NCBI GenBank assembly: GCA_030272155.1
Contig: CP126202.1
Location: 806,001 to 870,000 of the forward strand
Origin: Tetradesmus obliquus
Lineage: Eukaryota; Chlorophyta; Chlorophyceae; Sphaeropleales; Scenedesmaceae
DNA length: 64,000 nucleotides
Reading direction: 5' to 3'
This document shows positions 21,627-62,379 of this stretch, in pieces; the stretch's first letter is position 1, and every line of letters begins with the position of its first letter. The notes beneath the pieces are model-generated. The model saw nothing but the letters and a program-made list of their open reading frames with translations, was not told the DNA's origin and did not search any database. The translations under genes and the position numbers were made by a program.

Positions 21627-23624
21627 TCAGCTGGACTGAACCAGCGACGGCTTGGTAAGCCCTGCCGCCAGCTCCACCAGCCGCTGAACCCCACCGGCGG
21701 GGTTTGGCATCAGCAGTGCCGGCGAGGGTGTAGGGCCTGGGCCAGGGCTTGGCGTAGGGTCTGGCGATGGTTTAGTGGACTCCAGGAAATCGATGAAGTC
21801 AATGAAGCTCACAATGAGGATGGCCACCAGGGCAGTGACAACGGCTGCACACAGGCCCAGGGGGCCCACGCGGTCGTCGAAGTGCTGCGGCTGCAGGTAG
21901 CAACAGCAGCAGCAGCAGCAGCAGTAGCGGCGGGGAGACAGGCGCAGTGAGTAACATGTGTCGTGCGGATGTTATTGGCACGCGTGCTGTGCAATTGCAG
22001 GCTGGTGCTGCTGCATGCGTTGCTGCACCGGTGCGCGTCGAGTGTTGCTTGCATCAAACAGATCATTGCATGCTGTTTGGGCGCATGCTGCAACGTGTTA
22101 CAAAAGACAACCCACCCGCTTCTTGGCGATCATGTCAGAGCGCCACTTGAAGATGAAGATGGCGTAGCCGCACATGCTGATGGCCACCGGCAGCAGGATC
22201 AGCGCGATGATCTCCACCAGGTGAGCAGACAGGCCCGTCTGCAGGGTTCAAGAAGCGAAACAGGGTTTAGGACTTGCAGGCATACGGTTTTGGGGTTTGA
22301 CGGAGTATCTGGTGAAGCATGCAGGCATAGCCGCACATGCTGATGGCCACGGGCAGCAGGATGAGCTTGATGATCTCCACCAGGTGAACAAACAGGCCCG
22401 TCTGCACGAGGGTTTAGAATGTCACGGGCGGAGTCAGGTTTTAGTTGAACAGCAGGAATTGTGTTATGCATGCGAAAGCAAGTGCAGGTTGTCAACCTGC
22501 CAACAATCATACACAGGCCCAACATTGCAGTTCTCATCACACTGCTACAGCTGCCGCTGCTCCAAATTAACACAAAAGTGCCAACATGACATAACAATAT
22601 AACACCCACCTGGCCCTTGGTGTTGCTGGAGCCCAGCGGTGCCGCTGCGATGGAGCCCAGCGTCACTGCCATGTGCAGCCAGCTGACACTGCTACAGCTG
22701 CTGCTGCTGCTAAGGAATAACACAAAAGTAACAATATAACATAACAATATAACACCCACCTGGCCCTTGGTGTTGCTGAAGCCCAGCAGGGCAGCTGCAA
22801 TGGATCCCAGTGTGACTGCCATGTGCAGCCAGCTGAGGAAGGTGCGCTCGTTGGCAAAGAATGTCTTGGGCTCGATGCGCATCATGGTGGTACCCTGCAG
22901 GGTTAGAACAAACGAATTGGGGGGTTAGGTTTAGGCATGCACCCATGTGGTGCAGCTGCAATGTTGGCAAAGAAGGTCTTGGGCTTGATGCACATCATGG
23001 TGGTGCCCTGCAGGGTATGAATAGAAGGTTCAAGAAAAGGGTTTAGACATGCAAACATGTGGCCCAGGTTTAGGGTTGGCGAAGAAGGTCTTGGGCTCGA
23101 TGCGCATCATGGTGGTGCCCTGCAGGGTTTAAATAGAAGATTCAAGATAAGGGGGTAGACATGCAAACATGTGGTCCAGGTTTAGGGTTGGCCCAATCTG
23201 GGTATGAAAGTTTAGGGTTCAGACATGCAAACATGTGAGCTACGCCGTCGAGAACAAAATGCAGCAGCAGTGCAGACAACCAAACATGCAACACATCGAC
23301 CCATTCACCGGCTGCCTTACAGGGGGCGCCCCCTTTGACCCAGCAGCTTCATACAAAGCCCGCCTGCATCCCAGAACCTTTCATGCTGTTATCAAGCAAC
23401 TTCCAACCACTGACAAGGCATGCAATCACTGAACCTGATAGCAGCACGCAGCATGTTCTGATGCCAACAAACATGGGATGCCCAACCATACAAAAATGAA
23501 GCACAACAAGTGTTTGCTCACCGGCTGCCTCACAGGGGGCGGCCCCTTGGGCCCCAGCAGCTTCATCCAGAAGCCAGGCGCATCGCCGTCACCACGCAGC
23601 GACTTGGCAAAGCCCTTGATCTGC

Positions 23625-23659
<35 letters not shown>

Positions 23660-26600
23660 GCCAGCGCTCAACATGCCAGACATTGAAACTGCAGTTCCAC
23701 TGGCTCATGCAGACTAGTCCACGGCAGATAGCAGCAAACCAGGGATCAGCAATCAATCCACAACCTGCTGCAAACATCACATTCTTGAAACATCACCTTT
23801 GAGGGGTCTGGCAGCAGCCTCAGAGTTGGCTGGTCGCCCAGCAGTGGGTGGCTCAGGTCCTCCAGGCCAGGGGTGCGCTTGCGGGGCTTGTCGACAGCCA
23901 CAGGGGACGTCAGCTACAGGAAATGACACGATTCACACAAAATGTCAAGTGGCGTTGTGCGACGCAGTTGATGGGGCACGCTAAAAAGAGTATGCCCGGA
24001 CGGCCATGAGGAGGATGCGCTTGAAAGGCTTGTTGAGGCCGCATGAGATGTCAGCTGCATGGTGTGCAATACCGACAATTTGTTGGCGGAAGATCTTGGG
24101 CAGATGGTATGGCATCTGCTGCGCACTGCATGTGAAAACCATTACTTCAACAGTGCAGTGCAGCAGATTTCAAGGCATGCAGCAGCAATCTGTTCTGATT
24201 TCATTTGCAAAGGATGCCTTGGCTGGCTGCACCACACCAGATGCTTCCACAAGATGCACGTCATGCTTCCCAGTATACAATTCAGTATACACCTTGCCTG
24301 CAGGATGTCTCAGTCGGACGCCGACTTAGATTTCCTGCAGGCCAGACCAAGACTGAATTGTATGCTGTGAATCACAACATGCATACCATGGCTGGTGCTG
24401 CAGTCTTTTGCCGAGGCGCAGCGCTGATGGCATTGCTGTGAAGATGTAGCCTGCGGCTCGCACCGTAAGCACTGCTGTATTGAGAACACAGCCACCCACA
24501 AAGTGACTCTGGCAATGCAGCAAGCACCAATTGAACCCGACGTAAACCCTAGTTTCTGGATGCTGAACCCTCAGCCACCGCCTCACCTCCTCCTGCACCT
24601 CCACCGACACATGCTGCCAGCAATGCACTGCAAGCACCAAATGCAGCATTCACCTAAAACCCCAAACCCTGCACCCTAAACCCTCAGCCGCCGCCTCACC
24701 TCCTCCTGCACCTCCACTGACACATGCTGCCCATTGCCTGCTGCTGCGCTGCTGCTGGCCGCTGCTGCATCTGCGGGGCGCACTGCTGGCGCTGACAGCA
24801 GCATGCTGGGGCGCACGCTCTCGTCATCAACCCAGTAGGGCACAGCCTGCGGAATGCAACGAAAAGTAACATAGTAACATGTTGCGTATGCAAGTCTTGA
24901 GGGACGGATGCAACAGCTGACGTAGAAGACAGATGCCAGCCTGATACTCAACTCTGATTATGACAGACCATCTTGACAAACTTTAATCAAGTATTTGCTA
25001 GCACAGTGCAGTCTCAAGATGCTGGCCCACACAGCAACTGCTGATGCAGCGCCCAAAACCCTGCAGCCGCCAGCTATGTTAAACCCCACCTGCACCAGCT
25101 CAGGGGTGAGCGTGCAGCTGCCGTGGATGAACTTGGAGAACTTGTGCACCTCGGTGAGGTAGCCAGACTCCAGCAGCTCCTGCGTTACATGACAAAATAA
25201 CACACGTTAAATATCACATTTTAGTCGAAGCAAACAACACAGCCAGCTGATGCAAGCACATCCATCTCAGAGATGCCTTCATCAGATCATCCCCACTGCA
25301 GTAGCTGCAGTCCCTGCTGTCTGATGCCTGCAAGCTGCTGCTGCAGATGCGCAGTGCGTCAACCGACTAGCTGCACCCGAGGCTGCCTCAGAACCCTCAA
25401 GTAACTGTAGCCCTGCACCCACCTGCACCCAGGCGGGGCTCTCCTGGGCCTGGCCCAGTGACAGCTTCACCTCCAGCGCCACCCCACCTGAGGCTGCCTT
25501 ACACCCCAAGTAACTGCTGCCTTCAATCCTGAACCCTAGAGGAATGCTGCACTAAACCCTAAACCCTGCACCCACCTGCACCCATGCGGGGCTCTCCTGG
25601 CCCTGGCCCAGTGACAGCTTCACCTCCAGCACCGCGTGGGGGAAGCGAGTGATCTCGTTGCGGTTGATGGGCAGGCTCGGGTCCCTGCAGGGGTTTTGGG
25701 CAGGGTTTAAAGCAGGGTTTTAGCAAGTTTCAATGCATCTTTTGGGAGTGCAGCATTGGCAGCGGCACCAAGTGAAGTGAGTGCTAACACCACCCACTTG
25801 CGCCTCAGGCCACAGCGGGCGTTGGTGTGAACCATTTGAACCACAGCACGCCCGGCATCTAATGCCTGCACACAAATGACAGTAATGACAGAAAAAGTAA
25901 CAGCCGCACCTGTACCAGCGGCCCGCCAGTGTGCAGCTGGGCCCCTCATCCGGGTTCTCCTTGATCATGCACAGGTTGGTGTCCATGGAGATGCGCACCG
26001 TGGAGTCAAAGGGGATCTGCAGCAGCAGCAGGGGTTGAAAGGGTTCAGCAGTGACAACACAGCTTTGCAATTGACGTCTTTCATGTTCTAAGGGTAGGAT
26101 ATAATGCTGACAAGACACACAAGTATGCCAAGAGTACTCCCTCAACATGGCTCCGCACTCACACAAGCAACTTTAGAATGAACATCCCAGCCCTGAACTT
26201 CGTATCTCTGAACCCTCGCTGCTCTCAACCCTAAGCCCTGTCACCCTCACCTGGAAGGCGGTGCGCATGTACTTTTCTGCTGCTGCAGCTTCTGCCCACT
26301 CCACATCGATGCCTTAGGTTGCTCAAGTATCAAACCACATTGGCTCCTCAACCCCGACCCCTCACCTGGAATGCGGTGCACTGAACATCCCAGCCCTAAA
26401 CTTCGAATCTTTGAACCCTAGCTGCTCTCAACCCTAAGCCCAGTCAAACCCCTCACCTGGAATGCGGTGCGCATGTACTGCGTGCGGATGAAGGGCCGCA
26501 GCTGCTTGGAGTCGATCTGCTGCCGCACTTCCGTGAACAGCGTGGAGAAGTTCTCAATCTCCTTCTCAGACTTGCCCGCAGCACGCAGGTCGGCCACAGC

Positions 26601-27360
26601 CTGCGGCAGCAGCAGCAGCGGCAGCAGCACTGGATTCAGCGACAGCTCAGCAAATTACACTGCGCTCAATACTGCAGATCCAACAGCAGCAGCGCCAGCA
26701 CTCCGCGGGAGGCATCAACAGTCCACACTCCAGCTGGCGGCAATAGAGGAACCCACAGTTTTGAACCCTACCGCCAACCTGATGATGGCTAAACCCTTGC
26801 TGTCACTGCCAAAACCCCGCACCTGCTCCAGGCCGTACTCCATCTCCAGGAAGGGCACCACCTTGTCCTCATCCAGCGTGAAGCGCTCTTTCACACTCTC
26901 CTCACCCTGCAGGGTTTGAGGTTATGCAGCGCAGGGTTCAGCAGCGCAGGCATTAGCTGTCAGTGGCAAAAGTTTTACGAGCTTTTGTGTACACTTTGGG
27001 AGACACCACGTTGTCCTCCTCAAGGGTGAAGCACTCCTTCACACTCTCCTCGCGATGCAGCAGGGGTTCATGAGAGCACGAATTTCAGTGATGTCAAAAA
27101 AAAGCACAAAAGGTGCATAGGGTTCCATGGACAACATGCTGCACTAGCTTGCAGTAGCTGTTGCTGGCCAGTAGTGGCGGATGCATGCGCAAGCTGACTG
27201 CTGCAGAACACATCGTGCCATGCGTGATAGAGGGTGTCAAGTGCATGAACCCCAAACCCTGCCGCAGCCATTGCTAACTCTTTCAAACCCTCACCTTCCA
27301 GCTCTCCCTGTGCGTCTTGCGCTCAATGAAGACCTTCTTCGGCTCACCAGGGCCGTACCA

Positions 27361-27406
<46 letters not shown>

Positions 27407-28123
27407 CACTAGTGAGCTCAGCAATCAGCAGGTGAAGAACGCAGGCGGCAAACCAAAGCGGCTGTTCCTTAGCGTCCCCACAGTGCGAAACCCAGTGACC
27501 ACACAGCATCATTCTCCACCCCAGACCATCTTCAATCCACCATCACAAACATCCTTCAGTACTGCAGCAACCCCGCACCTGATGCGCAGCGCAATCACAT
27601 TTGGTTTTTTGTCCAGCCTGCCGTTTTACAGCTCCAGGTTCTCGTTGTCAAACTAACACGCTGTTGATCTGCTCAACGCCCTTGAAACCTTCCAACCTCA
27701 AAACCCTTAGCCGGCTAAACCCCTAAAACCCACCTGATGCGCAGCGCAATCGCGTTGGGCTTCTTGTCCAGCCTGCCGTGGTACAGCTCCAGGTTCTCGT
27801 TGTCAAAGTACACGCTGTTGATCTGCTCAACGCCCTTGAAACCTTCAACCTCAAAACCCTTAGCCGGCTAAACCCCTAAAACCCACCTGATGCGCAGTGC
27901 GATCGCGTTGGGCTTCTTGTCCAGCCTGCCGTGGTACAGCTCCAGATTTTCGTTGTCAAAGTACACGCTGTTGATCAGCTGCGCATCTCCCGAAAAGTCG
28001 TGCTTGTCAAACTGGAACACGGGCAGCTGCTGCAGCACGTGGTACTTCACGTTACTGACATCCTCGGCACGCACCCAGTACTTGGTGGTGGAGCGCACAA
28101 AACCCTGCAGCAGCAATAGGGTT

Positions 28124-28155
<32 letters not shown>

Positions 28156-30458
28156 TACGCATTTGTTTGATGTTTGGGCAGTTTGCTCCAGCACGCGGTG
28201 CTTCAGGTAGCAAGTAGCAAGTAGCAGGTTGACAGGCATGACCAGAGCAATCCAGTCCAGCAGCAAGAGCAGGACGCCATGTGCACAACACAGCCGAGGC
28301 ATGAGCAGGACATGCTGCAAGTTCCACGGCACTCGGCGCCAAAACCGCAAACCCCAAACCCTGCTGAACCCCACCTGTGACGCGTCCTCGTCCTTCTGCC
28401 CTGCCTGGTCGCCGCGCAGCTGGCTGTAGCAGTTGCTTCGGTGCACTAGCACATCACTGTAGGTGCCCCGACCGGCACACCCCCCAAACCCTAAACCCTC
28501 TGCCTTAAAACCTGCTGAACCCCACCTGTGATGCGTCCTCGTTCTTCTGCCCTGCCTGGTCACCCCTCAGCTGGCTGTAGCAGTTGCTCAGGTGCACCAG
28601 CACATCACTGTAGGTGCCCTGCACCCATGGCTGCTGGTGCAGGTGTGCGATGTAGAACTGGCGGCAGGGGCTGTGCGGCAGCAGCTTGTCGTGCTTCTTG
28701 AGGATCTTGTGCACACCCTGCAGGGTTTAGGGTTTTGTATGTAACAGTGTTACAGCGGGGTTCAGTGTTGGAACAGTCTAAGCAAGGCAGCTAGTGCAGT
28801 AGTTGGGTAGTGCAACATGCATGCATTGTAATGCTGCCTGATTGAGGTAATCGCCATGCATGTGACGGTATGCACATGTCACATGTCACATAACATGTTA
28901 CATGACAAAATGACAAATCCCGCTCACCATGTAGTTGAGGTTGGCGTACTTCTCCAGCTGCAGGTAGTCCTCACCAATCAGCTTGGCCTCCTGCAGCAGT
29001 AAGACGAAGGGTTTCGGGTAGTAGTTCAAAGACGGCAGATGGGCAGTTGCAGCAGGTTCAGCAGTACACGTAGTGCATTTGACAGTAACAGTGCGTCACA
29101 CACACAGTCACGGGGCAGCTGCATATACCACGTTTGCAGCATCATCACACATGCCGCTGTTGCTGGCTGCTGCTCCCACACCCTTGCACCACTTTCAAGA
29201 CTGAGTGCACCACATGAGGCGTTGAGGCATGTGAATATGACAAAGCGAATGCTTAAACCCCGGAGCACCCGCACCTCCATGAGCCGCTCCTTCTCATCTG
29301 TGGCGCCCGCTGCTGCTGCCGCCTTGTCAGCCTTAGGCTGCAGGTTGGCCAGGCGCTGGCGCAGCTCTGCCACCACGCGCTGCGTGAACTTGCCCACCTT
29401 CTCAACCTGTGGTGAATTACAAACAGCAGCAGCAGCAGCAGAGGTTTTACGAGTTACTGGCTGGTTACGGCTCCGCAACGACACGCTGCGTGAACTTGCC
29501 AACCTTCTCAACCTGCGTTGCAATAAAAAAACAGCAGCAGCAGCAGGGGTGTTGCTTGCTGGTGGCAGGTGGGCCAGGCACTGGCCCAGCTCAGCCACCA
29601 CTCGCTGCAAAAACCTTGTGGCTTTCTCCAACTGCAGCACCAGCAGCAGTAGCAGCAGCGGTAGCAGCAGAACCAGCAGCGCAGCAGTAACAGCACCAGC
29701 GCAAGCTGCGGACATGCACAACCAGCATGCGCAGCATGACGAGCAGCAGCTGGGTGCAACTTGTGCGGCAAGTGTCGGTCACCATCACTTCCAGCACTTC
29801 TGCGGATCCAAAACAACTTGCATGCAACACTGAGCTCCGGCTTTCAATCAGGTTTGTGGTATACCGCCGTGCCACCAGCTTTGGAATCTGGAAAAAGGAA
29901 ACATCCACCTGCCACCGGCTATCTTTGCTGCGCGGACAATGCTCAGGCTGGTGGTGCGCGGGGTGAATACACGCCTGTGCGCGTTAGTCAAAGAAATTCC
30001 ACAAACCTCTGCGTCCAGCGTTTGCTAGACTTGCTCTTGTGCAGCGAATGCCCTTGTACCTCGGCTTAAAAGCATCACAAAGCATACCTAAGCACAGCAC
30101 GACCCCAACCCACCTCTGCCTGCAGCTTCTGGAAGAACCTCTCCTCAGCCGCATCCGCTGCCTTTGACTCGCGTAACCCCAAACTGCCACCCCACGCAAA
30201 AACCTCAAACCCTCAAGCTGCACATGCTGCACCTACCTCTGCCTCCAGCTTCTGGAAGAAGCGCTCCTCGGCCGCATCCGCTGTCTTTGCTGCGCGCACA
30301 ATGCTCAGGCTGGTTGTGCGCGGGCTGAATGCAGCGGGCCCTTGTGTCTCTGCCTCCTTTGCGGACTCCTTGATGAGGTCTTTGAGCCCCTTGTAGTCAA
30401 GGTAGAAGGAGCGCCAGTCCTCCTTGGCCTGCTTCTCAAGATACTTGCCGAACTTCAT
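21627..30458 (-). CDS. VTC4: VTC4: polyphosphate polymerase subunit of the vacuolar transporter chaperone complex
   Basis: Seventeen exons join in frame to 770 residues: 30237-30458, 29275-29406, 28928-28990, 28526-28717, 27887-28104, 27295-27361, 26823-26906, 26457-26600, 25910-26016, 25576-25684, 25090-25179, 24700-24846, 23797-23913, 23522-23620, 22760-22894, 22116-22238, 21627-21890. Yeast Vtc4 is similar in size. The SPX domain (MKFGKYLEKQ; HKILKKHDK, about residues 142-150) senses inositol pyrophosphates. The central catalytic domain has STTKYWVR, SVYFDNENLELYHGRLDKK, ALRIRWYGPGEPKKVFIERK and THRESW, whose basic residues line the ATP/polyphosphate tunnel. The end has EPKTFFANERTFLSWL and three membrane helices. 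It polymerises polyphosphate from ATP and feeds it into the acidocalcisome/vacuole. It is divergent from VTC1. Almost every intron holds copies of flanking exon ends. Confidence 0.96.
22324..23127 (-). repeat. Partial copies of VTC4 exons 15 and 16 in introns
   Basis: 22324-22404 repeats the start of exon 16 (TGLFVHLVEIIKLILLPVAISMCGYA in short form) with an acceptor. 22618-22690 repeats the end of exon 15 (SWLHMAVTLGSIAAAPLG, with GTGGGT donor). 22975-23016 and 23083-23127 repeat the exon 15 start (acceptor plus GTTMMRIEPK). Each lies on the side of the exon whose boundary it copies. Confidence 0.9.
23308..25490 (-). repeat. Partial copies of VTC4 exons 14, 12 and 10 in introns
   Basis: 23308-23350 copies the end of exon 14 (GGGGGCGCCCC region with GGTGAATG replacing the donor region). 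24577-24615 copies the end of exon 12 with its GTGAGGCGG donor. 25427-25485 copies the end of exon 10 (VKLSLGQAQESPAWVQ, GTGGGT donor). Confidence 0.85.
26250..27058 (-). repeat. Partial copies of VTC4 exons 8 and 7 in introns
   Basis: 26250-26272 and 26364-26385 repeat the last codons and donor of exon 8 (RTAFQ, GTGAGG). 27006-27058 repeats the start of exon 7 (EESVKECFTLEEDNVV) upstream of it. Confidence 0.8.
27576..27887 (-). repeat. Two tandem copies of the VTC4 exon 5 end, about 155-bp period
   Basis: The donor-side 85-110 bp of exon 5 (VYFDNENLELYHGRLDKKPN, IALRIR, GTGGGT) recurs at 27731-27840 and, more decayed, at 27576-27660, each with its piece of intron. Spacing of the donors is 153 and 155 bp. 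Confidence 0.93.
28376..28475 (-). repeat. Copy of the VTC4 exon 4 end
   Basis: It codes GTYSDVLVHRSNCYSQLRGD and QAGQKDEDASQ with a GTGGGG donor, nearly identical to the last 100 bp of exon 4 (28526-28717). Confidence 0.93.
29455..30168 (-). repeat. Partial copies of VTC4 exons 2 and 1 in intron 1
   Basis: 29455-29515 and 29575-29634 repeat the acceptor and start of exon 2 (VEKVGKFTQRVVAE; LEKATRFLQRVVAELGQ). 29905-29965 and 30114-30168 repeat parts of exon 1 (SLSIVRAAK region; AADAAEERFFQKLQAE with GTGGGT donor). They show graded decay. Confidence 0.9.
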
Positions 30459-31355
30459 TGTAGATAGTTCTGATAGCTACTCGGGATGTCTCGAAACGCC
30501 TGCTGTGGAAGCGCCTGCTGCTGCTGGAGCACCTGCTGCGTGCTATCTGTCAGCTGCTGGTACGTGCTGCTGCTGCTGCTGCTGCTGTGGTGCTGATCGG
30601 TGAGATACTGCTGTGTCTGCAGCAGCGGAGATCAGCGGGCAGGAGGCAGCAGTTGCAACAGCAGCACAGGCAGCAGGAACAACAGCAACAGCAGTAGGAC
30701 CTAGTGACATGCGCATGACTATTGCCCTGCAGAACACCAGTTTGACTGGAATCTAGTGCTTTTGATGCTATGTTTCATACTTTTAGTAGCGAATCCCGCT
30801 CACTCGCAGAGCAAGCACGAGCCTGGCACACCCGCAGCAGGCTCGGACACTGCATATTCGCTACACGCCACATGCTGCAAACACCCACCTGATATTGCAC
30901 CACGGCTGTAAGATCAGCAACTTGCCACAGAATCAAAGGCGCCGGGCTCCAGATCACGCCGCAGAGCGGGCGTGAAGTTACGAGGCACCCGCAAGTACTG
31001 GAACAATGCCGTTCAAGCACTCAAAAACGCATCAAGCGTTCAAACCACGGCATTCCCGGTTCCTGAGCGTCCCCAAGCAGTCCGCAGTCGACTGCGCATC
31101 GCGACATAACCCTAGACATAACAGGTATCGCATCAGCATCTTATGGCCGCTGCTGCGGCCACCCGTGGCTAACCCCAGGTAATATCCGTTCAGGGTGCCA
31201 AAGCTGATTTGATGTTTCAGATGAGCCGTTGCTGCTGATCAGCCCACGCACGTAGGGCAAGCAGGTGCCAGCAGCGTGATTTCGAAGTGTGTGTCCGACT
31301 AGGCGAGGGCATCTAGCATTCCAGGGCTTTTCGTGCAGCAAGGTGATCGGCAGCC
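30459..31355. promoter_or_regulatory. Bidirectional promoter region of VTC4 and VTC1
   Basis: The 897 bp between the two start codons must hold the 5' untranslated regions and promoters of both genes. It contains a (CTG)n run near 30565-30590 and one PHR1/PSR1-type motif (30852-30859). No TATA box was identified with confidence. Confidence 0.7.
30852..30859. promoter_or_regulatory. P1BS-like motif (GNATATNC), candidate PSR1/PHR1 site
   Basis: GCATATTC matches the palindromic P1BS consensus bound by MYB-type phosphate-starvation regulators of plants and green algae. By chance one site is expected about every 4 kb, so its position between two phosphate-storage genes is suggestive, not proof. 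Confidence 0.5.
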
Positions 31356-32538: not shown

Positions 32539-32583
<45 letters not shown>

Positions 32584-35432: not shown

Positions 35433-36257
35433 ATGCAGCAGCAAATGAGCAACAAGATTGTATTCAGCAGCTCCGCTCTGCCTTGCATCCACATGGCTGC
35501 CTATGAAGGTGAGCAGAGGGGATGTGGGGCTCCACCCAGCAGGAGCAGCGCTGGCAGGCTTCAAAGAGCAAATATTAATTTTTTGTGCGTCTATTAAGAG
35601 TTTGCGATAGCCTCTTGGTCGATCAGCAGGTGGTGGACGGACCAGCTTTTGCGCGGGATGCCACCCCGCCACTGACAGCCACGCACTCTGAGCAGCAAAG
35701 GCCGAGCAGTCCTCCTTCATGCTGCAAACAAACAAATCAAACTAGCTCCATCAATTTTCCTCTTCCAGCAGCAGGCAACTCTTGCACTTGCTGACATGGC
35801 CCATGCGCCTCCCCTTGTTGCTCCCTGACACTCTCCTGCCCTGCTACTGCTGTCCATCCTTGATGTACACCGCCCTTGCTTCCCAGGTGACATCCAAACC
35901 CTGCGCAGCGCAATCGCCGACGGCGAAGACGTCAACAGCCGCATCGACCTCCCCAACCAGTCGCAGCACACCGTATGCGGCGTGACACCCCTCTACCTCG
36001 CAGCACAAGCCGGCCACAAAGAGGCATGCGAGCTCCTCATAGCAGCAGGCGCTGATGTGTCAGTCAAGTGCGCTGTTCCAGAATCGGGAGACGTGTTTGG
36101 CCCCGCAGACATTGCGCTGATCCACTTCAACCTGAAGACGTGGTTTTACCTGGCAGCGGAGCAGAAGCGGCGCGCAGGGCGCATCAGCCGGCGGCGGCAG
36201 TTCCAGAGCAGCAGCATGGCGCAGCCGCTGGTGGAGCACTCGCAGCTGGTCATTTAA
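35433..36257 (+). CDS. Small ankyrin-repeat protein
   Basis: Two exons (35433-35508 and 35887-36257) join GAAG to GTGACATC and give 148 residues. One ankyrin repeat is clear (GVTPLYLAAQAGHKEACELL, then IAAGADVS), preceded by a degenerate one (IHMAAYEGDIQTLRSAIADG with GEDVNSRID). The C-terminus is basic (RRAGRISRRRQF) and ends in SSMAQPLVEHSQLVI. Ankyrin repeats mediate protein contacts; the partner and pathway are unknown. The ATG follows GCTCAGG and is the first in frame. Its 3' end, including a stop codon, is repeated twice downstream. Confidence 0.8.
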
Positions 36258-36312
36258 GCATTAGCTGAGTGTGTTTTTACAATGATATGTAAGCCAAATG
36301 CTTGTATGCTTA

Positions 36313-36490
36313 GTTCCAGCAGCGTGGTGCAGCCGCTGGTGGAGCACTCGCAGCTGGTTATCTAAGCAACCACTTATAGTATAAGTATGATACTTTGATT
36401 TGTGCTCAAGGTTGCTGCATGACTCAGCGCCGCGACAGGCGCAGCAGCATGGCGCAGCTGCTGGTGGAGCACTCGCAGCTGGTCATTTGA
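36313..36490 (+). repeat. Two copies of the ankyrin gene's 3' end, stop codons included
   Basis: 36313-36368 and 36430-36490 repeat the last 50-55 bp of the coding region: VQPLVEHSQLVI plus TAA, and MAQLLVEHSQLVI plus TGA. They follow the real stop at 36257. Confidence 0.93.
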
Positions 36491-37501
36491 GCATTGTGTT
36501 GACGGTTGCTTTGAAACTACTAGTGCATGATGCATCTGCATTGTCAGGGTTATGTTGTACATTACGTTGTGAAGTGATTGCAGAGCTCGCCGGGGTTGTT
36601 GAAGTTGTATGGTACCCTGGTACCTGGTTGTCAGTGACAATAACTGAGTGTTGGCATGGCACCAGCTCGACATCCCAGCTGGCGGCTCCAGCATCTGTGC
36701 TGGCGCCTGCTTTTACAATACAATAATACACAGGACTGGACCTGCCGCGGCACCAGCCAGCGAGCCGATATACCGCTCATGAGGGTTGGTTTATTGTACC
36801 CAGTCTTTTTCCTTCGTTGGATGGGCGCAAGTCCGTCAAATCCCAGTTGCCTTGAGTGGCGTTGCTGCCACATGTCATGATTGGTTTTATGCTTCCTTTG
36901 CTCCCAGGTGGAGCTGCTGCCAAAGCAGCTGCACATGTGATGTGCAGTGGGAGCTTCAACTGCACATCATGTGCTGTACAGTCGTGACAGGGATTGCTGG
37001 CAACGCCCAAAGTTAACAAAGTGCTCAAAAGTCTGATGAGAACATCAGATTCCCTTGGCATGATCGTCATGATGATCATCAGACTTTTGAGCACTTTGTT
37101 AACTTTGGGCGTTGCCAGCAATCCCTGTCACGACTGTATGGGTCCTCAGCAGTCCCTGATTTTCCGGCACTGCCAAGCACTAAGTGTAACATTGCATTAC
37201 ATTACATTACATTACATGCTCCATTGCAAAGCCTCAAAACCGTTGGTGACTGTTCAACAGTGACCAAGTCAAATACGTTGGTGACCAGCACAAATCACTT
37301 AGAGTGATGTTGTCACAATAGTGACCACGCAATCACGCGTCCACAGCTCTGCCACCACCCTAAATGCAACGAAGCACTTCAGAAACAGTGCCGCGCCTGC
37401 TGCTTGCCTTTGCCTGCCCTGCCGGCTGCAGCAGCCCAAGCTGCCGGTGTTCAGGGGCAATGCACTGCACCCCACACAGCACTGGACAGATCTGTACAGA
37501 T
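36491..37501. other. Intergenic region with a long perfect hairpin
   Basis: It holds the 63-bp-arm inverted repeat, a TTACA microsatellite (37192-37216, about four units), and near 37390-37440 a copy of the SHOC1-like gene's last codons (CTGCTGCTTGCCTTTG-CCTGCC). Confidence 0.7.
36977..37138. repeat. Perfect 63-bp inverted repeat with 36-nt spacer
   Basis: Arms 36977-37039 and 37076-37138 are exact reverse complements (TACAGTCGTGACAGGG... to ...CTGATGA). The spacer is itself partly palindromic (ATCATGACGATCATG on one strand). No terminal target duplication or coding sequence was seen. Confidence 0.95.
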
Positions 37502-38650: not shown

Positions 38651-38698
<48 letters not shown>

Positions 38699-38762
38699 TA
38701 CAACAGCACTGCCTCTATGACTCAGGAAAGCATCCAGCACCCCTGACGGATCAATGCCACCC

Positions 38763-38798
<36 letters not shown>

Positions 38799-38813
38799 AT
38801 GGACAGGTCACCA

Positions 38814-48643: not shown

Positions 48644-49188
48644 GTTCTGAAGCTTGAGCTGCACTCGAGTGCTGAGCTCAGCAGGCTGCGGTTCTGCCAC
48701 AGCTGCCAGCTGCTTCACTGCTGAGGCCGTTTGCACCGTGACATCTTTACAATTAAGAATCCCAAATTTGGCATGTGGTAAAGCATTGCCTTTGCAAGAG
48801 ACTGCCACCTCTGGCTCAACCAGCAGCTGAGTGGGGCCCTCAACACTGTTTGGATGGCAACAGCCTGATGCTGATTTTGCCGAAAAAAGCAGGTTTGGCC
48901 TGATAACACATCCCTAGAATTCTTTAACGTCTGTGGACTGTCAAACGTACACCGTTTGCCATTCAGCAGTGCTGCAATGCAGCAGCACCACTGGTGAAGT
49001 CACTTCAGCTGGTGCCTTGGAAGGGCACGAACCAACATGCACACCAGGAAGGAGTTAAGATCATCGGTGGGACAGTTCAGGAGTTGTATCTGAGCGAATT
49101 CAAAAGGCAAAACAGCCGTGCTCAACTGCCTTACGGCTATGCTACACGCCGGGGGCTGAAGTGACAAAACAACCCTAGGTAGTGCCAT
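48644..49188 (-). CDS. Two candidate 5' exons of the SHOC1-like gene
   Basis: 49045-49188 starts with ATG and codes 48 residues (MALPRVVLSLQPP... LPFEFAQIQLLN...) up to a GTGTGC donor. 48644-48826 (61 codons, LLVEPEVAVSCKGNALPHAK...) lies between a CAG acceptor and a GTGAGA donor. The two join in phase 0. A further frame at about 48165-48290 (YQIDAGDTIFHVPCAISAEP) looks coding but its phases do not fit neatly. They could be the N-terminus of the SHOC1-like protein or a separate short gene. Confidence 0.4.
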
Positions 49189-49339
49189 GATTCAAACCGC
49201 AACATCGTCATAGCTGGCATTGGTTCACATTGTTCTAATGACTAAGTTTATTACCTGAACGAAAAAGAATCATTTCATGGGACTCTTGCAACCCTTCCGA
49301 GCACAGCATCATTTCATGGGACTCTTGCAACCCTTCCGA

Positions 49340-51880: not shown

Positions 51881-52398
51881 GTGCAGCAGGCAGTGACTGC
51901 CTTGACCGCTGCAGCTGTACAGCGGCCACAATGCAGCAATGGCCCTTGCTCGCAAACTTGCACTCGGGCCTGTTGCCAAAAGCAAGTGTATCACCATGCA
52001 GCCAGAAATCAGGCACACATCGTTGCGACCCACACCAGCTGGCAGCAGGTACCAGCTGGCAGCAGCCTGACCTGAGGTCACCACTAGTAGTGGTACTGCT
52101 GCCACCACCACCGCTGCTCTACGCAGCCATAGCCGCTGAAGCCGTGCTCTGTTGTCACAAACTATGCGTACACCAGATCAAAGAGTCGATTACCAAACCT
52201 GCCGAGGTCCAAGCAGGCGGTTCGACGGTCCAAAGCAGGCGGTCCGACGGTCCAAAGACCCATAACTACAACCGTCGTGTGCAACGACTGCTGATATCTA
52301 CGACACGTGTTATGCTTTTTGCTACATTGCTGCTCATTGTACTGGAAACACCCCCTCGCATCGGATTTTGCAGTCGTTTGCGACCTCCCAAGCACAGC
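51187..52398. other. Region between LRR genes B and C
   Basis: It contains the duplicated 3' flank of gene B up to about 51880, then about 500 bp without visible features apart from a small direct repeat CGGTCCAAAGCAGGCGGT near 52225. Open frames here have no domain. Confidence 0.55.
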
Positions 52399-54365
52399 AT
52401 GGACAAGCTTCGTGAGGTCCTGCAGCTGTGCTTCCCCCGCCTGACGCCAGAAGACATGTGCAGGCTGCAACGCACTTGCCGTGAGCTGCGAGACATGAGG
52501 GTGTCCTGGCGGGACCACAGCATCAACTTCCACCTGAACGAGTCGGTATCTGCTCTCTCCTGGCTGCACAAGAACATCGGCTCCATGCGGAAGCTGAATC
52601 TCAGAATCAGTGTTGTTTTGCCACGGTGGATGCTGCAGCAAGTGATGGAGGCTGGCAGGTGGGCACACGCAGCAAGCAGCAGCAGCAGCAGCAGCAAGCA
52701 GCAGGCGCTGCAGCCTGAGCAAGCCACTGTAATGGCTAGCGTATCTCGAAGATCTTGTTACAGTGAGCAAACTCAATCAGCCAGCTTCCTGCATTTGCTG
52801 CTGCTCAGCGTATTGTAAGACGGCTTGCATGGCTAGTGCCACTACCACTGGCATTGTGTAGGAGCTGCCATCCGCCATTCGATGTTTGCGTGTTTTTGCC
52901 GTCGCCAGTTTTGCCCTGCGTTCAGGTCCTGACTACCTTTTGTGGCTGCTGCTTTTGATGGGGTACACCATCGTCCTTTCTGCCGCCACTTGTCAGGGAC
53001 TTGACCTGCCTCAAAATCAGCAGCGACAACATCACAGAGCTGCCGCCCCTGCCGCCACAGCTGCAGCAGCTGGACGTGGCACACTGCAGCAAGCTGCGGT
53101 CACTGCCAGCGCTGCCACTCACACTGCAGCAGCTGTGCTGTGCAAGTTGCCCTAAACTGGAGAGCCTTCCGCAGCTGCCGCCCAGCTTGGTTGAGCTGGC
53201 TGTGAGCTGCAACAGCCTGCTGCAGCTCCCCGCGCTGCCTGAAGGCCTGAAGCGCCTGGACACTGCAGGATGCACAGCGCTGACAGCGGTGAGCTCAGCT
53301 GCTGGGTGCTGCTCGTGCCAAGATCCTAACATCGAGTATGCTGCAGCATGTGAAGCGCTGACAGTGGTGCACAGCAGCGCCTGAACCCTGCTGAAGTTTA
53401 CTGTGATCCAGTAACAGTGTTGGCGGGCATGGCTTCTGGTACTGTGCAGTCACACCTGGCAAGATACAGCCAGACAATTCGGCTACACACAGCAGCTGTC
53501 ACACTTGCAGTCTGGCAGCTCTGCATCACTGGCACTGTTGTCACTCCCGTAGGAAGTCACGCATGCGCATTCAGCAATGATGGCAGGTGTGTTTCCTGCT
53601 GCCAGCCTGACCCAATCAGCCAGCGTGTTCCCAGCAATCAGCACGCGACTGACTGCTGCACGCTGCCTCTCTGCCTTGCAGCTGCCAGAGCTGCCAGCGT
53701 CGATGACTCACCTGAGATGCTACGCATGCCACAGCTTGGAGCAGCTGCCGCAGCTGGCGCACACGGGCATGATCGAGCTAGTATGCCAAGACTGCCCACT
53801 GCTGCAGGAGCTGCCAGACATGCCAGGCAGCCTTAAGAAGCTGTGGGCAGGCGGCCTCACTCAAGTCGACAGGCTACCCAGGCTGCCTGCAGAGGGATTG
53901 CAAAGGTTGTCTATCCAAGGAACAGCGATCAGCGAGTTGTTCAGCTCATTCAGCGTATTCCCAAGCCTTCAGGAGTTGCGGTGCGGCAAGACACCCATCC
54001 GGCAGCTGCCAGAGCTGCCAAGCTGCACTTCGCTGAGCTTAGTCGGCTGCAAGCAGCTGCAGCAGCTGCCAGAGCAGCTGCCTGCTGGCCTCATCGACCT
54101 GGACTGCAGCGGATGCAGCGCACTGCAGCGGCTGCCAGCGCAGTTGCCACCCAAGCTCGTGAACCTGTGGCTCTGGAATTGCACAGCACTGGAGCAGCTG
54201 CCAGAGCAGCTGCCTGCCAGCCTCACACTCGTCAACTGCAGTGGCTGCAGCAGCCTGCGGCAGCTGCCAGACCTGTCACAGTGCCAGGTGAAGAGCTTGA
54301 TTCTGAAGGGGTGCGGTGCGCTGAAGAGGGTGCGCGTGGGTGGCTGCACTCTAAGCTATGAGTGA
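52399..54365 (+). CDS. F-box-like leucine-rich-repeat protein C
   Basis: Exons 52399-52658, 52997-53288 and 53682-54365 give 411 residues. F-box-like start: CFPRLTPEDMCRLQRTCREL, then RDHSINFHLNESVSALSWLH. LRRs follow the LPxLPxxLxxLxxxxC pattern, such as LPEQLPAGLIDLDCSGCSAL. It is shorter than B because one LRR block in exon 2 is missing. The intron positions and phases equal those of B (2, 0). Function as for B is unproven. Confidence 0.82.
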
Positions 54366-54589
54366 GGCATGATATGTCTTGATTGTGGTGTTGCTGTGCT
54401 GCTGTGTGTCCCACATGGCGCTGCCCTGGGGCTGCAGTGCATGGATGCCCAGGAGCGAGCTTGCGACCTCAGGGTTTGAAGGTCGGCCCCCATCGGCCTT
54501 TTTGCCAACTTCCGCGCTTGGGTGGCTGCACTCTTGACTTTGAGTGAGGCGCGTTTGTTTTGTTGGGCCGTTTGTGGTGCTGTGACAGC

Positions 54590-54820
54590 TGCTGCATGCT
54601 TTGCATTATGCTGCTGTGTGTCTTGCAATGTGCTGCTGCATGTCTTCCATTGTGCTGCTGCATGTCTTCCATTGTGCTGCTGCGTGTCTTGCATTGCGCT
54701 GCTGCATTTTGTGCATTGCGCTGCGGTATGCTTTGCATTGTGCTGCTGTATGGTTTTGCAGTGTGCTGCTGCATGCTTTGCATTATGCTGCTGTGTGTCT
54801 TGCAATGTGCTGCTGCACTG
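54590..54820 (+). repeat. Minisatellite, about 21-bp unit, about 11 units
   Basis: Units such as TGCTGCTGCATGTCTTCCAT and TGCTGCTGTGTGTCTTGCAA repeat head to tail with variation. The paralogous flank of gene B (about 51226) has only one unit-like sequence, so the array expanded after the duplication. Confidence 0.88.
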
Positions 54821-55965
54821 TAGTGTGAAAAGGCAGTGTGAGCGTGGTTTACGGCGGGGTTGTTTCTGGAGAAGGCGTGACGGCGCGGTGTGGTTAGCGC
54901 TTCGTCATGTGCAGCATGCATCCCGGGGCTAGTCCACACTGTACATGCATATGCCAAATGTGTGGTGTGCTGGTTCTGCCAGGATTGCAGTGTATGCTCC
55001 CCCCTAGTGCTGTCCCACCTGCATATTGCTATGTAATGTACTATGTACCAATAGTGTATGATGAAGTACAGTGTGTGGTGTGCTGGTTCTGCCAGAAATG
55101 CAGTGCATCAGTGGCTGCTCCCCCCCTGGTGCTGGCCCACCTGCATAATGCAGTGTACTTCAATATGTACCAACAGTCTATGATGAGTACAGTCCTTCAT
55201 TTCCGAGCAATGCTTGCATGCCATGTTGAGTAGCCATGATGGATTCGGGGGCCCTTCTCACTGTTTTGATACACATTATGCTGATTGTGGTTGAATTGTT
55301 TGCCTGCGTGCACGTTGTAACTCTTTAGAATGCAAGGTCTCGGCGATCTGGCTTAATGTTCGGCTGCTGTGCCAAAGTGACTGGCATGAGAGGTGCTGCA
55401 CTGCTTTGCAGGAGTCTCCTTTGCTGTGCTGCACATAGTTCAAAATATGTCTATACCTCGATGGTGCCGAGTAATGTAGGTCACATTTGTTTAGTTGATA
55501 AGAATTCTATTCTCTCTCAACGTGTCATTGGACTACAATGCAGACACCAAACAATGCACTGGCAGTCAGGCTGGCAGAGGCAGTGACAGCTGGTGACATC
55601 GTGCGACCATTATGGTTCGACCCTGCATAGATTTAGCAAACGTAAACGAATCTACTGCGTTACCGGCAGGCGAACAAGCATACAACTTTGAACACGCTCG
55701 CATCTCAGGCCCTGAGGGTCAACCAACGGTGGTTTCACCGACCCGGTGCGGTCCGCACTGCCTGAGGCAACAGCTGTCAGTTTGCATGCACTTTCGGCCA
55801 AATATACACATGCTATCTAGAATGAAAGTTCTTGTCTTCTGTGTCCTGGCGCTCAATCATACACATCGCAGCATGCGACAAGCGTCCACTCTGAATCCGT
55901 TCATCCGTGCATCTGTGCGTGCATGGCAGAATTGAATATGGTTCGAGTATGACGAGTTGAAGCTG
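54821..55965. other. Region between LRR gene C and the SGNH gene
   Basis: The first part is duplicated flank (to about 55500). The remaining 450 bp should hold the promoter and 5' untranslated region of the SGNH gene; no motif is recognised. Confidence 0.5.
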
Positions 55966-56265
55966 ATGAGCTGTAAACAAACAGAGCGGGCTTTGCTTGC
56001 AATATGGCTGCAAGGCCTGCTGCTGCTTCAGCCAGTTGCAGTGCTTGCTGCTGCTTCTGCCACCAAAGAACAGGCAACAGCCGCAGCACAGCACGCTTCA
56101 GCTGCATCACCGCGCGCAGACACAGTAAACGTGCAGGTGCATGGCAATCAGCAGGAGCAGGCGCAACAGCAGCAGCAACAACTCAGCACAACATCAATTG
56201 CTGTGTCACCAGCAGCCAAAGAGGATGTGCCACCACCAGCAGCAACACCAGATAAACCAGCAGCA

Positions 56266-56310
<45 letters not shown>

Positions 56311-59044: not shown

Positions 59045-59092
<48 letters not shown>

Positions 59093-61161
59093 GTCCAGGA
59101 CACCTCTGTCAACACGCAACATGCCCAAGCCTTTGAGCGGTTGATTCGCAAGCTGCTGCAGCTGCCGCACAAGCCTGCAGTGGTGCTGATGCAGGCTCTA
59201 GCCCAAGGCATATATGGGGCAAGAGGCCTGTTCTACTGGACAGTAGAGGTGAGCTGAGTTGCTGTACACAGTTCCGCCAACAGCCTGGAGGCTTGGTGTT
59301 GTTTTGATGCAGGCGCTGGCTCAGGGCATTTACAGTGCACGGAACTGCCACTGGTCAGTGGAGCTGCGCAGCTGCACAGTACTGCACTTTGCTGAGTGTG
59401 CAAGAGTGAACAAGCTTCCCAAGACAGACCGCCAAACACCCTCACGGCCAACGGTATCTGCTGCATCCCAAGTGTGCTAGAAGTGTGCTTGGAGTGTACT
59501 GTGCTGTGTTATTGACCCAAGCCCAACTTTGCTTGCAGGACCACTATGGAGTCTAGCACTTTGCTTGCAGGACCACTATGGAGTGCTGGCGCAGCGCTAC
59601 CAGCTGCCGCAGCTGCTGATTTTAAGCAGCCCTTGTTTCAGTGCTGTCTTGCCGAGACATCCCAAGTCAGATTGTTGTGCTGATCATTGTATCTCTTCAT
59701 TGGCACTTGCAGGACCACTATGGCGTGCTGGCACAGCACTACCCGCTGCCGCATCAGCCAATTCAAAGCAACCGGTGTTTCATTGCTGTCTGGGAATGCT
59801 GTGCTGATCATTGTATCTCTTCATTGGCACTTGCAGGACCACTATGGGGTGCTGGCGCAGCACTACCAGCTGCCGCAGCTGTCAGTTCGAAACGCCATGT
59901 ACCACGAGGTTTTAGCAGGGGCGCCAGGGTTCAGCACGGCAGAGATATACCCTGATGTTGAGCAGGCGATGCAGCGGCACCCTTCGCAGCTGGGGCACAG
60001 ATACATGGCAGATGTGGCAGGTGCGGTTGTTTTTTTGTGTTTAGTGCTACGATTATTACATTGACAAGTCCTGTTGTGACATTGTATGAGACGGCTCACC
60101 TAATGGTCTGAATATGGTATGCCGGGCTTCTGCAGAAACCAGCCTTTGAGTGTCTGCTGATGAGATTTTAAAACTTGAAAACTGAGAAAAGGCCGCACAG
60201 CCATCATTTGCTAATGGCTTCTGTGCAATGCATCTACTGCCAGCAAAAGCAGCTCTTGAACAGGCCAAGACGTCAACAGGCATACATACATAGCTGCACG
60301 AGTGCAGTGTCAGCCATGAGTGTCGAACGGAGTTGAAATTATGCTTGCAAGCTGAATCTGCACGCTTGCCGGGCTGCCTGCTTGCCTGTCTGCGTGCCTG
60401 GCTGCAGTGACCATGGTGCAGCAAGTGTTCCAAGATATGGCGCTGGCACCAATCGACCTGCAGGATGAGTGGAGCCAGCGGCTGATGCAGGTGGGCAGCA
60501 GCAGCGGCAGCAGCAGCAGTGGCAGCAGCAGCAGCGTAGCCTCGCTGTTCTCGCGACATGTTTGCAGCTGCCAATGTACCTGGCTACCACAAAGACGCCC
60601 GCATGAGCAGCAGCTCGCGCAAATAGCGGGTGCTGAACGCGCACTGCCTTATTGTGCCTGCAGGTACCAACCCCAATGTTCCCTCGCAATTTCGAAGGCC
60701 GCAACCTGGCCTGCCTCATTGGCTCAGACTTCACATCAGTTGTGAATGCCTCACAACATTGACTGCTGTGCCCATGCACTGTGGATACAGGTACCAGCCC
60801 CAATGTTCCCCGGTAACTTTGAAGGCCGCAACCTGGCCTGCCTCATTGGGCCAGAATTCAGATCAGTTGTCAATGCATCCCAACATTGGACCTGGCAGAA
60901 TGACGGCACTGCAGAGAAGCCCAAGTGGGGCTACAGCACCAGCAGCGCCGGCGCAACGTTGGACATAACTGTTGACACGCGTGCAGGTTTGGTGTCAGAA
61001 GATGCTGCGGAAATGGCAGCGGCACATGGTACCACTGCAGATGCTAGGCATGGTGCTGCTGCTGCTGCTGATGCTGGCAGTGGCATCGCAGCAAGTGCTG
61101 TGCGCTTGGAGGCTGCAAAGGCAGCAGCTGAGCCTGGCAGGCACTTGCTCTCACAAGATCT

Positions 61162-61203
<42 letters not shown>

Positions 61204-62379
61204 GCAACAAGCAGAAGTGCGTGACGAGGCGTGGTGGGAAGCACAGCAGGCGCAAGCAGAGGAGCAGGAGAGGGGGCGGCTTCAGGAGTCATATGTTGGC
61301 TTCCAAGATGCAGATATGCTTGTGTGGGTGGGGTACACCAAGACCTGGAGGCGAGGCGGAAGGGCGCTGCTGACGTGTCACGGCGGCTGCAGATGTAACA
61401 ACGAAACAGTGGAAGGCTACCACAGGTGGGTGGTGAGAGAGAGGTGAGGTAGGGTAGGGCTATGTTTTGGTGTCAAACAGAGAGCAGCAGAGTGGGTGTG
61501 AATGCACAGCTGGCAGGGATAGTGCAGCCCCACTCAATGTGGAGTTGGCTTGGCTCATGCGGAGCCACCCTCCTTATAGTCACTGACCAGGGATGGCCCC
61601 ACGGGTACCCTGCCGGACCCTCGGGTATGGTAGGGATGGTAGGAGGCGTGGAGGCGCATGAGGTATCCTCATCGCCACACACGTCCCCTTCCTTAACTTA
61701 CGCGGGTGTTACGTGTGAACACACCACACGTAGCTCACTCACTCACACTGACCAGGTGCATGGTTGGGTCGCGGAAGTGCTTGCATGCGCTGTGGCCTAT
61801 AAACACACCATGGCCTACAAACCGCCAACAAACATGCAATGTACTGTTGTTGACCTGTACGTCACTTTCACAGGTACAAGACCAGGCAGAGCTACATGGC
61901 CAAGGTGTACAAGCAGCCGGCTACATGCTTGGGTTGCAGCAGTGCTTGCATGCACTGTGCTAGCATGCGCTGTGGCCTGGCATGCGGTCACATGCTGCCT
62001 GGCAAACACAGTGCACCCCTCCTTAAGAACCTGCTGCAAAAACATCCACGTGTGTTGTTACAAACATACAATGTACTGTTGTTGCCTTATTTGTCAATTT
62101 TGCAGGTACAAGACCACGCAGAGTTACATGGCCAAGGTGTACACGCAGCAGGCGGGAGCCTGCACGGTGCGCGTGACGGTGCTGTCCGCCGGCAGCAGCA
62201 GCGGTGGCGGCGGCAGCAGCAGCAGCAGCGGCAGCAGCAGCGGCGGCCGCGGCAGCTACTTCAAGGTGTCTGGGGTGATGGTGACTCGCAGGATTGGTGA
62301 CTACATTGGCGGGGACCATACGGATGTGGTGCTGCTGAACGCGATGCAGGGCGAAGAGTATAAGCTTGCATATGGGTGA
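55966..62379 (+). CDS. Secreted SGNH/GDSL-hydrolase-like protein
   Basis: Nine exons close in frame to 711 residues: 55966-56462, 57014-57118, 57810-57951, 58728-58793, 59099-59248, 59837-60020, 60408-60490, 60791-61425, 62106-62379. A signal peptide is clear (ALLAIWLQGLLLLQPVAVLA), so it is secreted or cell-wall bound. SGNH block I is VGVIGGSISW (Ser nucleophile), block III is IFLEYAINDGYT (Asn), and block V is RHPSQLGHRYMADV (His). The Asp normally three residues before that His is Met, so the catalytic dyad or triad is altered. A low-complexity Ala/Gln insert and a C-terminal region with CHGGCRCNNETVEGYH and SGVMVTRRIGDYIGGDH follow. Polysaccharide deacetylation or acyl transfer in the wall is a reasonable guess only. 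Introns hold many exon copies. Confidence 0.82.
57449..57765 (+). repeat. Three upstream copies of SGNH exon 3 start
   Basis: 57449-57520, 57572-57640 and 57690-57765 repeat an acceptor-like (CACCGCAG, CACTGCAG, CAACACAG) plus GFYMQR-VNDWFALFTSWL. The true exon starts at 57810. Spacing is about 115-125 bp. Confidence 0.93.
58003..58275 (+). repeat. Three downstream copies of SGNH exon 3 end
   Basis: 58003-58070, 58110-58200 and 58240-58275 repeat QRNG-VPATTAEYVSMCL; the first two keep a GTGAGT/GTGAGA donor. Exon 3 thus has six partial copies around it. Confidence 0.93.
59047..59091. repeat. (CTG)n microsatellite at a splice acceptor
   Basis: About 15 CTG units directly precede GCGTCCAG, the acceptor of SGNH exon 5, where a polypyrimidine tract is expected. 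Confidence 0.95.
59300..59380 (+). repeat. Downstream copy of SGNH exon 5 end
   Basis: VLMQALAQGIYSARN and WSVEL resemble exon 5 (VLMQALAQGIYGARG, WTVE); 59099-59248 is the true exon. Confidence 0.85.
59534..59800 (+). repeat. Three upstream copies of SGNH exon 6 start
   Basis: TTGCAGGACCACTATGG recurs at 59535, 59569 and 59709 before the true exon (59837); the last two continue with VLAQRYQLPQLL and VLAQHYPLP. Confidence 0.93.
60655..60765 (+). repeat. Upstream copy of SGNH exon 8 start
   Basis: CCTGCAGGTACCAACCCCAATG continues as a near-identical copy of the first 100 bp of exon 8 (60791), including GRNLACLIG. Confidence 0.93.
61862..61930 (+). repeat. Upstream copy of SGNH exon 9 start
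   Basis: CACAG followed by YKTRQSYMAKVYKQPA copies exon 9 (YKTTQSYMAKVYTQQA at 62106). Confidence 0.93.

Follow-up and report, generated by a model that had tools for sequence, protein, structure and literature searches.

Differences in intron length between related species are usually ascribed to transposons or, loosely, to drift, and intronic variable-number tandem repeats (VNTRs) and minisatellites are a known system of repeated intron sequence. Three further systems are close to the one described here. In a potato RdRp case of intron gain, a tandem duplication crossing an exon-intron border supplied duplicate splice sites (PMC4974935); small tandem duplications have been attributed to the repair of breaks with complementary overhangs (PMC8355091); and introners are elements that copy themselves into many genes (PMC9860276). 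We analyzed a stretch of 64,000 nucleotides from the green alga Tetradesmus obliquus (contig CP126202.1, positions 806,001 to 870,000 of the forward strand; hereafter the window), in which genes, including an SPX-VTC-DUF202 gene (the VTC gene), carry partial copies of their own exon ends within the adjoining introns.

As in the potato gene, tandem duplication over an exon-intron border gives duplicate splice sites, but in the alga existing introns lengthen, the copies lie inside them and the events are numerous in one genome. Like the duplications ascribed to break repair, the copies are head-to-tail, although their units are mostly 100-160 bp long as against insertions below 100 bp in that report. 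A genome-wide process adds intron sequence, as with introners; unlike introners, each algal copy matches its own neighboring exon, and the one piece of intervening DNA (filler) that was searched belongs to a single locus. Some edge copies have grown into arrays resembling intronic VNTRs and minisatellites, such as the six copies in a kinesin gene, whereas the algal repeat unit includes an exon end and copies are mostly few. Among the titles and abstract openings listed by literature searches, in which subscription journals are largely absent, none traces the length of introns in Scenedesmaceae to duplication of exon edges. The phenomenon, both real and widespread, is a variation on a familiar theme, border-crossing tandem duplication, which here lengthens introns and litters them with decoy splice sites.

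The first-pass annotation of the window had listed separate VTC4 and VTC1 genes, which merge into one gene of the polyphosphate polymerase type with 17 exons. When joined, these exons form a continuous open reading frame (ORF), and 769 of the 770 residues of the window protein are identical to T. obliquus protein P0001, which carries in addition one 15-residue insertion. Pfam placed SPX on the ORF of exon 1; the other domains are taken from the Pfam listing for P0001. Exon borders were set by alignment to P0001, and the first and last 40 bases of each exon were scored against both adjoining introns. Copies were found in the downstream intron for 8 of 16 3' ends (exons 1, 4, 5, 8, 10, 12, 14 and 15; scores 41-70) and in the upstream intron for 4 of 15 5' ends (exons 2, 7, 15 and 16; scores 49-66). 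No edge copy lay on the wrong side of an exon, where scores in the adjoining introns stayed at 18 or below; 30 shuffles reached 15-25 at their upper end. The copies are listed in Table 1, together with others in the window.

Table 1. Positions in the window of the VTC gene and of exon-edge copies
Feature	Position	Strand	Details
SPX-VTC-DUF202 gene	21627..30458	-	start codon to stop; tblastn with T. obliquus protein P0001
Exon 1	30237..30458	-	3'-end and inner-piece copies downstream, 30108-30166 and 29918-29971; score 60
Exon 2 (29275-29406), 5'-end copy, upstream	29470..29553	-	AG retained; score 56
Exon 4 (28526-28717), 3'-end copy	28356..28468	-	GT retained; 92% identity; score 63
Exon 5 (27887-28104), 3'-end, two tandem copies	27576..27828	-	with donor and intron start; score 70
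Exon 7 (26823-26906), 5'-end copy	27004..27060	-	AG changed to AT; score 49
Exon 8 (26457-26600), 3'-end, two copies	26179..26379	-	both with GT; nearer copy 23 bp; score 41
Exon 10 (25576-25684), 3'-end copy	25411..25480	-	GTGGGTGCAGGG donor retained; 96%; score 70
Exon 12 (24700-24846), 3'-end copy	24512..24618	-	score 59
Exon 14 (23522-23620), 3'-end copy	23305..23370	-	score 52
Exon 15 (22760-22894), 5'-end, two copies	22963..23129	-	CCCTGCAG acceptor on each; score 66
Exon 15, 3'-end copy with donor	22539..22686	-	unit 147 bp; 87%; score 58
Exon 16 (22116-22238), 5'-end copy	22324..22406	-	AG retained; 92%; score 56
Copy of an exon 17 stretch, beyond stop codon (downstream)	21500..21571	-	self-BLAST and exon map
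Predicted exon 35909-36257 (ankyrin ORF), two downstream end copies	36208..36495	+	at most 96%; no protein check
Predicted exon 59837-60020, two upstream 5'-end copies	59564..60020	+	predicted exon, no protein check
Predicted exon 62106-62328, upstream 5'-end copy	61828..62328	+	predicted exon, no protein check

The farther of the two exon 5 copies contains one stop and one indel. At the site of the exon 7 copy the P0001 gene model carries an extra KGEESVKERFTLDED; this is the sole insertion of P0001 when set against the window protein, it duplicates the beginning of exon 7, and the window copy at that place is decayed and has lost its AG. The insertion suggests that strains may differ here, as judged from a single public gene model.

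Duplications of this kind extend well beyond the VTC gene. The genome searched comprised 104.66 Mb in 17 contigs, from which twenty 10-kb stretches at preset positions (200 kb) were sampled, giving 264 kb examined together with the window. Self-BLAST of the window returned 74 near pairs (less than 3 kb apart), 60 direct and 14 inverted, many of the latter being palindromes. Stricter filters left 35 duplication clusters in the window, of which 13 belong to the VTC gene; the 264 kb as a whole had 102. The sample held 4 inverted pairs within 600 bp and 60 kb of the window held 10, direct pairs being far commoner. Direct repeats spaced 100-300 bp numbered 89 in the sample and none in order-1 Markov shuffles, which excludes chance and places the excess over shuffled controls beyond the window. 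It would be extraordinary for the copies to be an assembly artifact or chance matches: a single assembly was used, but decay is graded, shuffles gave no matches, the copies occur on many contigs and the separate P0001 model itself has a duplicated exon start.

To place exon edges outside the VTC gene we relied on a self-built gene finder, trained without RNA, first on the VTC exons and afterwards on what it had itself predicted, which in its last round recovered 16 of the 17 VTC exons, called 14 extra ones and called 1.9% of order-2 shuffled DNA coding. The edge test covered 176 exons including those of the VTC gene, the nearest earlier total being 257 predicted exons; weaker or shorter exons, those with short flanks or masked ends, and exons taken for decoys of a stronger neighbor were dropped, in the VTC span the 17 protein-checked exons took the place of the predicted ones, and exons of the repeat-array loci L024 and L025 were kept. 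Outside the VTC gene, in the sample and the rest of the window, 3' ends had a downstream copy in 28 of 149 cases and an upstream copy in 1, while 5' ends had an upstream copy in 16 of 137 cases and a downstream copy in 3; the corresponding shuffles contained no copies. The decoy rule lowers these wrong-side counts by construction, and the VTC and kinesin/CCT tests are free of it. Altogether 56 of 317 edges had a copy, spread so unevenly over genes that none of 5000 label shuffles was equally uneven, which does not support the claim that nearly every gene is affected. Four loci (L009, L015, L020 and L025, with 3, 6, 6 and 9 tested exons) had no edge copies, in contrast to L013, L018, L019 and L023.

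Kinesin-motor and CCT profiles, run against the whole genome independently of the gene-finder models, gave 135 matches at E 0.001 and 98 at E 10, respectively; matches were paired if they lay within 1 kb of each other and were at least 70% contained. Here 9 copies of 3' ends lay downstream, 7 copies of 5' ends lay upstream and none lay on the other side, with one of these 16 (C17:17833) possibly being a neighboring exon. Outside the 16, 2 interior copies and 1 whole copy were found, all downstream. Only 3 of the 16 came from the kinesin family, all at one exon start (L029), where a finer search resolved an array of six upstream copies, as well as two downstream copies of the preceding exon's end. 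The existence of exon-edge copies and the rule governing their side, as proposed in the first-pass annotation, are therefore established in the VTC gene and repeated in the sample and in the kinesin and CCT families. By reasoning, such a rule is to be expected if the protein must stay intact, the exon being by definition the part that still makes protein, and so the rule is no evidence for a machine that seeks exon edges.

The other genes named for the window fared unequally. An ankyrin match was confirmed on ORF 35829-36257, and matches to leucine-rich repeats were confirmed as well, whereas no Pfam support for SHOC1, SGNH or hAT was obtained from 30 window ORFs scanned singly, a scan that intron-split domains can escape. 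Copies at these loci are defined from predicted exons or from DNA alone, and minisatellite-like arrays, among them 595-1277 and 1502-1978, were excluded from the proven exon edges.

What kind of event produces the copies can be read from their size and their flanks. Unit length was 100-160 bp in 66 of 102 clusters, and repeat spacing likewise had its peak between 100 and 160 bp, a second hump falling at roughly double that length. In simulations at 8% divergence, units of at least 80 bp were detected about nine times in ten, units of 60 bp about six times in ten and units of 50 bp or less never (0 of 60 at 40 bp and at 50 bp), making short duplications invisible; above 60 bp the peak is genuine, and at 50 bp and below detection is blind. 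Units with and without predicted exons were alike in length (medians 131 and 125.5 bp; Kolmogorov-Smirnov p 0.90), which indicates a general duplication process.

In 31 of 54 nearest copies, the DNA between the exon end and the copy was homologous to the DNA past the copy (p at most 0.02 each; 0 of 29 with introns of other genes), as in small tandem duplications, where direct adjacent copies include the intervening DNA; the remaining 23 fell below the threshold for such displaced homology. With a cut-off of at least 9 matching bases in 12, continuation into their own intron was seen for 28 of 50 donor copies, and none of 40 matched the start of the next exon, 10 further copies having no listed next exon. 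One of 31 acceptor copies matched the end of the previous exon at 9 of 12, its own intron matching better at 11, and 8 more had no listed previous exon. Copying from mRNA was rejected on the grounds that no donor copy of the 40 crosses into the next exon, and the same count speaks against classical intron gain, a route named in the first-pass annotation. Insertion of foreign DNA, suggested by seemingly unrelated fillers, was dropped once a wider search gave displaced homology in 31 of 54 cases and the searched filler proved unique. That filler, an 83-bp sequence among 15 listed, had two matches genome-wide, both within its own array, and on this one search a dispersed element is an unlikely source. 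The pair comparison behind the filler examples and the AG states omitted pairs longer than 220 bp, spaced by more than 330 bp or with less than 25 bp between them. Together these flanks point to tandem duplication of genomic DNA, and not to an mRNA template.

A process directed at junctions, in which breaks or template switches at exon borders, through splicing, R-loops or chromatin, copy exon ends selectively, would be a different matter. An exon edge lay in 66 of 100 clusters against 42.5 (standard deviation 4.8) under random placement, two clusters above 1200 bp being omitted, but that test spans intergenic DNA and counts decoys called as exons, which overstates the excess. Similarity ended within 10 nt of the exon border, on the intron side, for 11 of 31 donor-edge pairs and 7 of 19 acceptor-edge ones, and duplications confined to introns are scarcer than expected (see below). 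Against this stand the equal unit lengths with and without predicted exons and the 0 of 40 donor copies entering the next exon, which makes a spliced RNA template unlikely. We regard such targeting as improbable; the side rule would follow from preservation of the protein.

Many copies keep their splice sites, as had been claimed: GT in 37 of 50 donor copies and AG in 36 of 39 acceptor copies. Their decay is graded, again as first described. Compared with their exons, 104 edge copies showed 296 synonymous, 247 nonsynonymous and 7 stop differences, and a set of 44 copies showed 143, 98 and 4. In 24 arrays with at least two copies, these differences could be polarized. Where the exon differed from all copies there were 34 synonymous and 9 nonsynonymous differences, and changes common to some copies amounted to 11 and 7, respectively. 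Those private to a single copy came to 52 synonymous, 83 nonsynonymous and 4 stop, a split of 37/60/3% where random change would give about 28/69/3%. Among the 44 copies, 11 of 13 gaps were not multiples of three, and 3 copies had an in-frame stop. The copies thus decay close to neutrally with a mild synonymous excess, and strong coding constraint, suggested by the 143 against 98, was dropped once the private changes had proved near neutral. A neutral-repeat control comprised 155 substitutions and 11 indels from few loci.

These patterns bear on whether the copies might be functional alternative or cassette exons. The retained splice sites, the 14 extra exons called in the VTC gene, the 15-residue duplicate in the P0001 model and the synonymous excess over the exon would all be accommodated by that reading. 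However, the copies are parts of exons and contain frameshifts and stops, inclusion of the first exon 5 copy (89 bp) would shift the frame, and the strongest synonymous excess, where polarized, falls at sites at which the exon differs from all copies. By profile coordinates there was one whole-exon copy, in the CCT genes. We consider a cassette-exon function very unlikely.

The copies account for part of intron length. VTC introns with copies measure 388-830 bp (9 introns) and those without 176-284 bp (7); with the copied span subtracted, 7 of the 9 return to 189-270 bp and the other two stay at 601 and 673 bp. Outside the VTC gene the median intron was 525.5 bp with copies (n=26) and 267 bp without (n=67; p 1e-4). 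After removal of the copied span, medians were 310, 288 and 189 bp for one, two and three or more copies (20, 9 and 3 introns), compared with 262 bp in 77 copy-free introns. Edge-copy spans, with decayed copies missed, made up 16% of intron bases in 109 introns and 32% in the VTC gene. Introns with copies are therefore about twice as long, and the proposal that copies contribute to intron growth is supported by the length differences and by the subtraction. One published table gives a mean intron of 462 bp for T. obliquus and 230-302 bp for four other green algae (Raphidocelis 230, Monoraphidium 302, Chromochloris 284 and Chlamydomonas 270 bp; PMC5966456); we infer that duplications may cause this difference. 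One long VTC intron holds a palindrome of about 131 bp (24254-24384), which may account for part of its extra length.

The explanation we favor, and consider probable, is frequent short-range tandem duplication across exon borders, combined with survival of those events that preserve the protein and near-neutral decay of the copies, with longer introns as the outcome. The nuclear genome would undergo frequent duplication of units mostly 100-160 bp long, many of which would straddle exon borders because exons, which average 136 bp in the VTC gene, are similar in size to copy-free introns with their medians of 225-267 bp. With a unit across a donor, the first donor would still give the right protein and the second exon end would land in the intron; with a unit across an acceptor, the last acceptor would give the right protein and the earlier copy would land in the intron. 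Such duplications would leave the protein unchanged and could persist, the intron growing and the copies decaying nearly neutrally, while whole-exon and exon-internal duplications would mostly be lost to selection. By analogy, the duplications may arise during repair of staggered breaks, by fill-in followed by end joining.

Several observations weigh against this explanation. In the VTC gene none of 15 duplications was confined to an intron; placing the observed units at random in the collapsed gene predicted that 39% of protein-neutral events would be (p 0.0007). Over all introns examined, intron-only duplications made up 9 of 68 pair rows, which are not independent events and from which pairs outside five classes were skipped. 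In simulation both kinds were detected equally up to 10% divergence, so that detection does not excuse the deficit. Intronic halves were recognizable in 31 of 54 cases against about 51 expected from the divergence of the exonic halves, under a criterion slightly stricter than that of the homology test, which fits intronic halves diverged 2-3 times more than the exonic halves imply. In 37 donor copies with exonic identity of at least 0.90, identity stood near 0.95 within the exon and fell to 0.83 at +0 to +5, 0.65 at +6 to +10 and mostly 0.3-0.4 past +18; in 23 acceptor copies selected likewise it was 1.0 at -3/-2, 0.83 at -5 and mostly 0.4-0.65 past -8. Copy-free introns outside the VTC gene can themselves be long (75th percentile 427 bp, 90th 808 bp), to which missed exons may contribute. 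An intronic counterpart is missing for some very similar copies, one of them 55 bp long at 98% identity (L018 591-755, minus strand). That copy carries TG in place of the donor GT and is the hardest single case for plain tandem duplication. Possible contributors are faster turnover of introns, gene conversion by the exon, selection acting on decoys and an origin at junctions.

The same data raise the possibility of active maintenance, in which the exonic half of a decoy is kept like its exon by gene conversion, template switching or selection on decoy sites while the surrounding intron turns over. The drop in similarity just past the splice core in donor and acceptor copies, the apparent two- to threefold greater divergence of the intronic halves and the scarcity of intron-only duplications are in its favor. 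It is countered by the near-neutral private changes, stops included, by the frameshifts and by the 13 of 50 donor copies without GT. Moreover, copies were found through exonic similarity, which biases exonic identity upward. When the search began in the intron, 9 cases emerged, 8 of them with an exonic partner; identities were 0.93 in the exonic and 0.95 in the intronic part, with no difference between the two. Maintenance is possible but doubtful. The broader proposal, that exons refresh or protect their own decoys and so sustain a self-renewing belt of decoy splice sites, which instead of transposons sets the intron length of the lineage, seems unlikely.

Tandem duplication across exon borders would have consequences for how intron length is studied. 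One countable type of mutation adds steps of about a hundred to a few hundred bp at particular exon edges, and growth, decay and competition between splice sites become traceable event by event. It also carries a warning for annotation: a gene finder reports decoy exon ends as exons when they have good splice sites, as with the 14 extra ones in the VTC gene, and one decoy may sit in a public T. obliquus gene model (P0001).

Telomere-like sequence such as GTGGGTTTTAGGG opens several VTC introns between 22000 and 29000 in the window, and CCCTAAACCCTGCAG-like sequence closes several, as read on the sense strand. The 14-mer TTTAGGGTTTAGGG with at most 3 mismatches had 20 matches in the window where 1.0 would be expected. 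Heptamers of telomere type gather mainly at 20-32 kb, and smaller excesses are seen at 32-40 kb and at a few sample loci, L013, L018 and L019 among them; most other loci have little such sequence. Telomere-like TTTAGGG/CCCTAAA at intron ends was rejected as a cause, being unable to account for copies elsewhere.

Inverted terminal repeats (12027-12744 and 17061-17702) bracket a 5.7-kb element, 12027-17702, which is probably the hAT transposon of the first-pass annotation; no Pfam transposase domain was found in its five scanned ORFs. Over 639 aligned columns the terminal repeats agree at 98%, their alignment containing three indels of 14-39 bp plus two small ones, and the transposon is accordingly young. 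No copies had been noticed in its presumed introns, in keeping with accumulation over residence time. The element indeed holds no strict-filter cluster, but about 2 would be expected at the genome rate, and looser searches find two direct pairs (12094/12199 and 16137/16633) and small minisatellites. The argument from residence time is weak: the youth of the transposon agrees with it, but the element is too short for a test.

Elsewhere in the window lie a palindrome of about 162 bp (36977-37138) and paralogous stretches that match leucine-rich repeats (17913-19963, 49332-51870 and 52384-55487), two in tandem on the plus strand and one on the minus strand. In the sample, L025 (1-10000) is a tandem array with a 4282-bp unit that contains predicted exons, and the two units compared are 100% identical.

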